Source of the DNA: Apostichopus japonicus
Lineage: Eukaryota > Echinodermata > Holothuroidea > Aspidochirotida > Stichopodidae
Assembly (NCBI RefSeq): GCF_037975245.1
Contig: NC_092577.1
Span: 573,001 to 637,000, forward strand
DNA: 64,000 nt
Reading direction: 5' to 3'
The position numbers were made by a program, and so were the translations under genes. The notes under the pieces were generated by a model. That model was not told the origin of the DNA. It did not search any database and saw only the letters and a program-made list of their open reading frames with translations. Positions 570 through 3,500 of the stretch are shown here, in pieces; positions within the stretch are counted from its first letter, which is position 1; the number at the start of each line of letters is the position of its first letter.

Positions 570-3500
570 AGATATCAACGTACTGCTGATTGGAGATCCA
601 TCTACAGCCAAATCACAAATGTTGAGGTAAAGTCTGCTCTTCCCTCTGACCTTCTATCCCCTCACCCTGCCCCATGTCCATGTTCATCCCTCCCCTCTCA
701 TCACAATCATACTCCCCCAACCTCAACATGAAAGCAGTTGGTTCAAATATTTGAGTGAAAAATGCTTGCTAAATGTTTTACTTTGCAAATTAAATCTGAA
801 AACTCATTGTCTGCATTGTAAATCTTTGAGCACAAAAAAAGGCTGTGCAAGCTCAGCCTCTGGTATTTGTTGATGATTCTCACACTGGATGGGCCTCAAG
901 GAAGCAGTGGTATGGAGTTAGTTGACTTAAGTGAATCCCAAGGGTTTATAGGAAGCCATTAGAAGCATATTTGAAAGCCTGTCCATGTGACGTTTGGTTC
1001 CTGGTGGAGTTTTGAACCAGTAACACATCAACAGTGAGCTTGTTCCTGGTGGTAAAACAGTAACACAATGGTTTTGGCAGGAATTCTAACCACCATGTTA
1101 TACCTTCAACTAACCATTATGTTCTGTTATGTATGTGAAGAGCCTCTCATAGCTTGTTGGTTTCTGTTATATTGTAAGATACAGTTTATCCATCTTCTTT
1201 GCATGTCATTTACTCACAATTCCCTTACAGGTATGTCTTAGCCACGGCTCCCAGAGCAATTGCTACTACAGGAAGGGGTTCATCTGGGGTGGGGTTGACA
1301 GCAGCTGTTACCACGGACCAAGAAACAGGAGAAAGGAGACTTGAGGCAGGTGCGATGGTCCTAGCTGACCGGGGTGTGGTCTGTATCGATGAATTTGACA
1401 AGGTAGGTAGTCAGTTAGAAAGGCTTCGTAGGTGTCAAACTCTAAGCAGGTTTATTTTTAACCCGATGTTTGAACCAGAAATAATTTTGTCTTTGCATGT
1501 ATTTATTAATAATCCACAGGATGTAAACACCAAGTATAAAGTGACCTATTCTAACTAATATATATGAATAATATGCCCAGTATTTTAATGTTTCTAGTAA
1601 CAAATTAATATGCAATTGTATTCTAATTAAATTATCTTTAAATAATAAGTGCAGCAAAGAAAGTAAAATGTGATGGATTTGTTTCTTCAGATGACCGACC
1701 AAGATCGTACAGCAATTCATGAGGTCATGGAACAGGGTCGGGTGACCATTGCAAAGGCAGGCATTCATGCTCAACTAAATGCTAGATGTAGTGTGCTGGC
1801 CGCAGCAAATCCAGTTTATGGAAGGGTAAATAGCATATAATAGATCTTTTGATATTACATAATGGTCAACAACAATTGAAGGAAATGTTGGTGGACTCCA
1901 CAAGGAAAGCCAATTGAGGCCAACAAAGGTCAACAGAGGTCAACAGATTTCAAGGTCTTGTAACTTTTGCAAACACAGTAATGCCCTTGCTTAAGTTGTA
2001 CATATTATAGAGTACAAGAACAACATTTTTTTTTTGTGGTCAAATGCCATTTGAGGTCAACAGGGAAGAGTGAAAACCTTGTAATATAATATCATTTAAA
2101 TGTTCTCATATAATATTTGACTGGTAATCACTAAGCCTGTTGGCTTGCTTGTTAAAACAGTTTGGTTATTTTCCTGTTAATTTCTGGGATCAGTTTATAG
2201 TTCGATAAGCCAGTTTTATATACTCATACAAATCCATTTCATCATGCTCAGAAATGGTCACATTATTTGCAAGGCATTCCATTATCCCAAACCTTCCAAT
2301 TATTATATTTGTCAATCAAACTTTGCTATTATCAGAATAAGGTGCACTTGTTACCCACAGTTGTCTACAAGTCAGGGTCTCTCAATATTTTTGAAACCAG
2401 TGATATCTAATACTTTCATGTTATTCTAAAGCTATTTCAAACTTATATTGGTTGTGATTTATTCACATGAGTTAATTTTTGAAATAAATTTAAAATCTAC
2501 CTTCACTGAATGCTAATTGATATGTCTCTACTGTATCTCTTTCTCAGTATGACCAATACAAGACGCCAATGGAAAATATCGGCCTACAGGATTCACTGCT
2601 GTCTCGGTTTGATTTGATCTTCATTGTGTTGGATCAGGTATGTTGTCTTGTTTGGATCAGGTATGTTGTCTTGAGATGGATCAGGTTTCTTGAGTTGGAT
2701 CAGGTATGTTGTCTTGCATTGGATCAGGTATGTTGTCTTGAGTGGATCAGGTTTTCTTGAGTTGGATGAGGGTATGTTGTCTTGTGTTGGATCAGGTGTG
2801 TTGTCTTGTGTTGGATCAGGTATGTTGCTTTGACTGTCGCTTGATGCCAACAAATTTTCAAATCCTACCACAAACTGGAGTGATAAAATAATTCATAGCA
2901 AGGACCAAAGAACTTTCCACTTGGTTTATCATCATATTATTGTTTCCATTTCCATTCTAAGTATCTCATAAAAGATTTGATGTGCCAATAGACAGAAGCA
3001 ATGGAGTGATGAATATTTTCCATTTTGTGGTTTAGTTTGATCCTGAATTGGTTAAATAAGCACCTTCTCAGTCTGTAGCTATGGTAACTAGAGGCTTTCT
3101 TTGTTCTAAAACAGCCTCTCAGTCTGTAGCTATGGTTACTAAACTTTTAAACCTGCCTTTTATTTCCTCCTATTAATTTCAGATGGATCCTGATCATGAC
3201 CGTAAAATTTCTGATCATGTTTTGAGGATTCATCGCTACCGAGCTGCTGGAGAGCAAGACGGCGCACGTAAGTTGCAGCATTGGTTAATTAATGGGACTT
3301 TCTGGGGATTTCTACAGAGGCCATTGTCATCACCATGGTGATGCATGTGATCTATTATTTGTACAGATCTCTGAATTGTGATCGCATGGAACACTCATTA
3401 GCATGTGAACAAGAGGGGTGATGGACTAGTTCAAAGTAACTTGATAGCATGGAAGCACTTATTAGCATGCTAGCATGATGGGTGATTGACTTGTTTCAAA

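Follow-up and report, generated by a model that had tools for sequence, protein, structure and literature searches.

A boundary-spanning minisatellite, most likely silent, at a 5′ splice site of MCM3 in the sea cucumber Apostichopus japonicus

In amphioxus, tandem repeats that span exon-intron boundaries are termed "mirages" and occur in two globin genes, BflGb6 and BflGb9; earlier work had described them in Adh3, where the repeat units measure 10-72 bp (PMC3087553). AG/GT is kept in many mirage copies, and both length and somatic instability occur; the Adh3 data and reverse transcription PCR, as presented there, suggest that regular splicing is undisturbed (PMC3087553). According to the account in the PGBD5 paper (PMC3902484), the Adh and troponin C mirages produce no aberrant mRNAs, and the cases in the passages of both papers that deal with mirages are all cephalochordate. 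The subject of this report is a 24-nt tandem array that crosses an exon-intron junction of MCM3 in Apostichopus japonicus (NCBI RefSeq assembly GCF_037975245.1, contig NC_092577.1, forward-strand positions 573,001 to 637,000); this whole stretch of 64,000 nt is referred to as the window, and all coordinates are positions within it. The array is likely to be an ordinary boundary-spanning minisatellite, a mirage in the amphioxus sense, and is most likely silent.

The repeat unit of the human gene IFI6 (6-16, G1P3) is 12 nt long. By the title of a 1995 paper by Turri, IFI6 reportedly carries a minisatellite with multiple splice donor sites. This minisatellite provides several donors, and two downstream units are described as used (PMC4526556); Turri 1995 is also cited in PMC3618361 on minisatellites that interfere with splicing. 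In a published model of intron gain, tandem duplication of an AGGT-containing segment copies splice signals across an exon-intron boundary (PMC4974935), and a globin version of such a model appears in PMC3087553. Repeats at the exon-intron boundaries of human duplicated genes are likewise suggested to form novel introns (PMC2812944). Earthworm metallothionein genes also have arrays within introns (PMC12783039).

The MCM3 array and the exon and intron that contain it are located as follows.

2624..2827, + strand: 24-nt tandem array across the exon-intron junction at 2637/2638.
2548..2637, + strand: 90-nt exon whose final 14 nt form the exonic portion of the repeat unit.
2638..3182, + strand: array-holding intron of 545 nt, with its acceptor 355 nt past the array end.

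Tandem Repeats Finder (TRF) assigns the array a period of 24, 8.9 copies, and a score of 259. In register, the unit joins the final 14 nt of the exon (TTGTGTTGGATCAG) to the 10 nt that open the intron (GTATGTTGTC). When TRF was applied to 200 dinucleotide shuffles of 2548-3182 (exon plus intron), a single row scored at least 50, and the maximum was 53. The string CAGGTATGT starts five times within the array (2635, 2658, 2701, 2725, and 2817) versus a mean of 0.004 and a maximum of 1 per shuffle in 2000 dinucleotide shuffles of the same interval; the one other occurrence in the window (1228), the sixth, corresponds to an acceptor and exon start elsewhere in MCM3. With up to three mismatches allowed, TTGGATCAGGTATGTTG has seven matches in the window, all seven of them within the array, and this count was reached in none of 100 shuffles. 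A chance origin is excluded by the shuffles, so the tandem array of exon end and donor proposed by the sequence-only reading is real. That reading placed about nine repeats directly downstream of the exon; about nine copies are indeed present, with nine being the total of the exonic original and eight others.

The copies differ from one another by substitutions and indels. In an ungapped comparison with the true junction, where indels lower the match counts, the number of matching positions out of 24 is 23 in copies 2704 and 2796, 22 in 2728 and 2820, 20 in 2661, 18 in 2685, 14 in 2772, and 13 in 2751. GT is present in 9/9 copies, the preceding CAG in 8/9, and the exact CAG/GTATGT in 5/9 (the slash marks the junction). 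Eleven of 23 array columns are invariant, nine of them in one 10-column block.

The gene that carries the array is identified by its product, as had been claimed from the letters alone.

570..9653, + strand: 3′ part of the MCM3 gene, with 12 exons, GT/AG at all internal boundaries, and an open product of 487 amino acids.
Exons, + strand: 570-626, 1231-1402, 1691-1825, 2548-2637, 3183-3267, 4214-4334, 4688-4838, 5078-5218, 6682-6797, 7923-8035, 8639-8717, 9450-9653.

The joined 12-exon product aligns from end to end with MCM3 chains in PDB (best E = 1.1e-187, to residues 338-808 of the chain), and the Pfam MCM (P-loop) and MCM_lid domains cover its first 317 residues. With the product as query, the best chains score 625-628 bits and others 594, 544, and 440; these are presumably the human, Xenopus, fly, and worm proteins, respectively.

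Each of the nine candidate donors was joined to the exon at 3183 for a frame analysis, with the following outcomes.

2638..2643, + strand: apparently authentic 5′ splice site GTATGT, exon ending in CAG; the only donor that would give an insertion-free MCM3 alignment.
2661..2666, + strand: copy 2, exact CAG/GTATGT; +23, frameshift, premature stop.
2685..2690, + strand: copy 3, decayed CAG/GTTTCT; +47, frameshift.
2704..2709, + strand: copy 4, exact; +66, in frame, stop-free, would add 22 residues.
2728..2733, + strand: copy 5, exact; +90, in frame, stop-free, would add 30 residues.
2751..2756, + strand: copy 6, decayed CAG/GTTTTC; +113, frameshift.
2772..2777, + strand: copy 7, AGG/GTATGT; +134, premature stop.
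2796..2801, + strand: copy 8, CAG/GTGTGT; +158, premature stop.
2820..2825, + strand: copy 9, exact; +182, premature stop.

The earlier expectation of at least four intact CAG/GTATGT sites is borne out, since the five donors it named (2638, 2661, 2704, 2728, and 2820) are all exact and four of them lie downstream. Its statement that most alternative choices would shift the frame applies to six of the eight downstream donors but to only two of the four perfect ones, because 2704 and 2728 are in frame. A 24-nt unit alone preserves the frame; it is lost at a spacing of 23, regained at one of 19, and lost again at a later 23. All six frameshifting donors lead to premature stops, each followed at a distance of over 50 nt by 6 to 8 exon junctions, which is the usual situation for nonsense-mediated decay (NMD). 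Estimated U1 pairing is -8.3 kcal/mol for all five exact donors, whose sequence is identical, and is weaker for 2796 (-7.7), 2772 (-6.2), and 2685 and 2751 (-5.6 each). Among the 11 donors of the gene in the window, which range from -4.5 to -11.9 kcal/mol, 2638 ranks fifth.

Donor 2638 is most likely the dominant site. When the exon is joined there, the protein aligns to MCM3 gap-free across LDQ/MDP. The spliceosome would most likely keep to this donor, which lies closest to the acceptor at the start of the same 90-nt exon, and the remaining copies would be removed with the intron. Exon definition is described as beginning at flanking introns above 200-250 nt (PMC9225289), and with a 90-nt exon between introns of 722 nt (upstream) and 545 nt (downstream), the MCM3 junction falls in this range. 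In the minigenes described in that study, two identical strong donors with 365-nt flanking introns gave the upstream product only, and human donor pairs of near-equal strength favored the upstream site in 60% of events; the evidence in that study is all from human (PMC9225289). Of the two explanations offered by the sequence-only reading, strong preference for the first donor is thus the better supported, by the gap-free alignment and the minigene study. Rare use of later donors would amount to low-level noise: six of them would probably yield NMD targets, and the other two would lengthen MCM3 by 22 or 30 residues. The array probably leaves the protein unchanged.

Several points weigh against this reading. 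In each of four intron classes, most human alternative 5′ splice site events unfiltered for strength favor the downstream site, as does the classical rule of intron proximity (both in PMC9225289). The five exact donors share one identical sequence, and in IFI6 it is two downstream repeat units that serve as donors (PMC4526556). Within the array, the core TGGATCAGGT varies less than the spacer among copies (permutation p = 0.0065, with copies that are non-independent; Fisher p = 0.14 on a hand-made event count). The lower variation of the core could hint at constraint and is not read as selection.

The array derives from the coding junction itself. The exonic bases of the unit sit in codons for IVLDQ, where the best MCM3 chain has IMLDQ; these bases thus encode conserved MCM3 residues, which shows that the coding junction gave rise to the array rather than the array to the junction. 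A small duplication straddling the junction would have seeded the minisatellite, with a 24-nt segment (14 nt of exon and 10 nt of intron) duplicated and amplified to about nine copies, probably by slippage or unequal exchange, and the copies would then have drifted through substitutions and small indels. Because the unit spans the junction, each copy has GT where the 5′ splice site would lie, and in five copies the context is identical. A dispersed element or introner was considered and rejected for the window, since the unit is found solely inside the array. An exact 20-mer had no match among viral contigs, a result of little weight, since the collection is viral and near records may be omitted from it.

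The MCM3 introns are rich in such repeats. Six arrays of at least 100 bp account for 2345 of the 8189 intronic bases (28.6%), a base count that takes in the incomplete first intron (1-569). In the underlying count, TRF units shorter than 10 nt were excluded and overlapping rows were merged by hand, leaving 35 arrays in the window, 17 of them at least 100 bp long and six of those in the MCM3 region. Random placement of the six array lengths (20,000 trials) covered a donor in 15.2% of trials and any junction in 29.6%, with an exon overlap of up to 15 nt permitted, a limit fixed after the observed 14 nt was known. No special cause is therefore required in MCM3 for an array to overlie a donor. Of 23 junctions examined, the array junction alone has near copies (at most 5/24 mismatches) in the surrounding 1500 nt, five in number.

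Other arrays in the gene lie near 3′ splice sites. One with a 107-nt unit (11 copies, 5495-6675) leaves just 6 nt between its end and the 3′ splice site of exon 6682-6797; by eye, its unit contains a pyrimidine tract and ACTAATAAC, which resembles a branch point, so the array may also repeat branch-site signals. The intronic arrays at 340-495 and 3716-4160 end 74 and 53 nt ahead of the next 3′ splice site.

If the later copies were genuinely used, as in IFI6, MCM3 isoforms longer by 22 or 30 residues would result, with the insert close to the end of the MCM P-loop domain. Two donors, 2704 and 2728, combine an exact sequence with a preserved, stop-free frame, and the two IFI6 repeat units reported as downstream donors set a precedent (PMC4526556). 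However, the insert would enter after residue 151, within the Pfam MCM match (residues 1-168 of the assembled product) and in a stretch that is gap-free against the best MCM3 chains, and exon definition as described in PMC9225289 predicts the upstream donor. Such isoforms are unlikely.

The array could instead act as a decoy or NMD-linked regulator, in which the frameshifting copies reduce MCM3 output, perhaps under the control of a splicing factor. The premature stops from six of eight downstream donors, with their 6 to 8 downstream exon junctions, and the low-variation core of the unit would fit this proposal, the second explanation of the sequence-only reading. Against it, the frame is kept by two of the four exact downstream copies, an array over a donor requires no special cause in so repeat-rich a gene, and RNA structure around the donors is not unusual (z = +1.13, with 174 of 200 shuffles folding at least equally well). 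A regulatory role of this kind is distinctly unlikely.

RNA structure that hides or exposes donors was rejected as a candidate in its own right given this unremarkable stability, and Rfam structured RNAs had no match at gathering score in the window. Protection from premature polyadenylation by U1 was also rejected, as the intron is without AATAAA or ATTAAA.

In a further proposal, equal donors in an array of variable copy number would give an essential replication gene a tunable splicing dial. If this were true, allele length and splicing-factor level would together set the shares of normal MCM3, of MCM3 whose ATPase domain is longer by 22 or 30 residues, and of NMD-targeted transcripts; it is rated as very unlikely. 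Misassembly of the array, or of the number of its copies, is highly improbable. Tandem arrays are easily mis-sized, and the BflGb6 mirage of amphioxus is reported as misassembled in the draft genome (PMC3087553), yet the 204 nt of the MCM3 array should fit a single ordinary read, and copies that differ by substitutions and indels are not one piece erroneously repeated. Intron gain under way through tandem duplication of an AGGT-containing segment follows a published model (PMC4974935; globin version in PMC3087553) and agrees with the AG/GT retained by the copies, but it is scarcely credible here, with the acceptor at 3182 lying 355 nt past the array and outside the unit, and the 24-nt acceptor window without a copy within 1500 nt at up to five mismatches.

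Elsewhere in the window, at least three pairs of open reading frames (ORFs) on the minus strand (12034-14345 and 22121-28479) resemble tandem paralogues by eye, e.g., DIEFYQYVKQRFHKLK and DIEFYEYVKDRFHKLK. Six pieces of these ORF pairs matched no Pfam family at E 0.001; the pairs may resemble animal sulfotransferases. A further ORF at 29112-29315 had no match in a PDB search. The open stretch at 51378-51737 contains MORN repeats (PF02493, E = 2.3e-16), and a 2.5-kb array at 23453-25941 consists of about 147 copies (TRF) of the 17-nt unit TTTGCCCCTATTTCCAT.

An essential gene in which five 5′ splice sites of identical sequence lie close together, two of the four downstream ones in frame, amounts to a natural competition experiment. 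A literature search combining MCM3, minisatellite, and intron found nothing, in line with the earlier remark that the arrangement had not been described for MCM3; the instance may therefore be unreported, though the kind is known from amphioxus and IFI6, as the sources cited above describe.

Set beside the amphioxus mirages, the MCM3 array likewise spans an exon-intron boundary and keeps GT in all nine copies, with a unit of 24 nt compared with 10-72 bp in Adh3, and judged by its sequence it would count as a mirage. It differs from Adh3, BflGb6, BflGb9, troponin C, and PGBD5 in its host gene, MCM3. Like the IFI6 minisatellite, it is a series of donor-like units that begins at the exon end; its unit, however, is 24 nt and not 12 nt, and its downstream donors are expected to stay largely silent, whereas use of such donors is reported for IFI6. 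As in the intron-gain model (PMC4974935), the duplication crosses an exon-intron boundary and copies splice signals; unlike in that model, no new intron is present at MCM3, and the acceptor lies outside the unit. The MCM3 array does not point to a new system, as its kind is already known; with it, a conserved replication gene joins the genes that carry boundary-spanning minisatellites.
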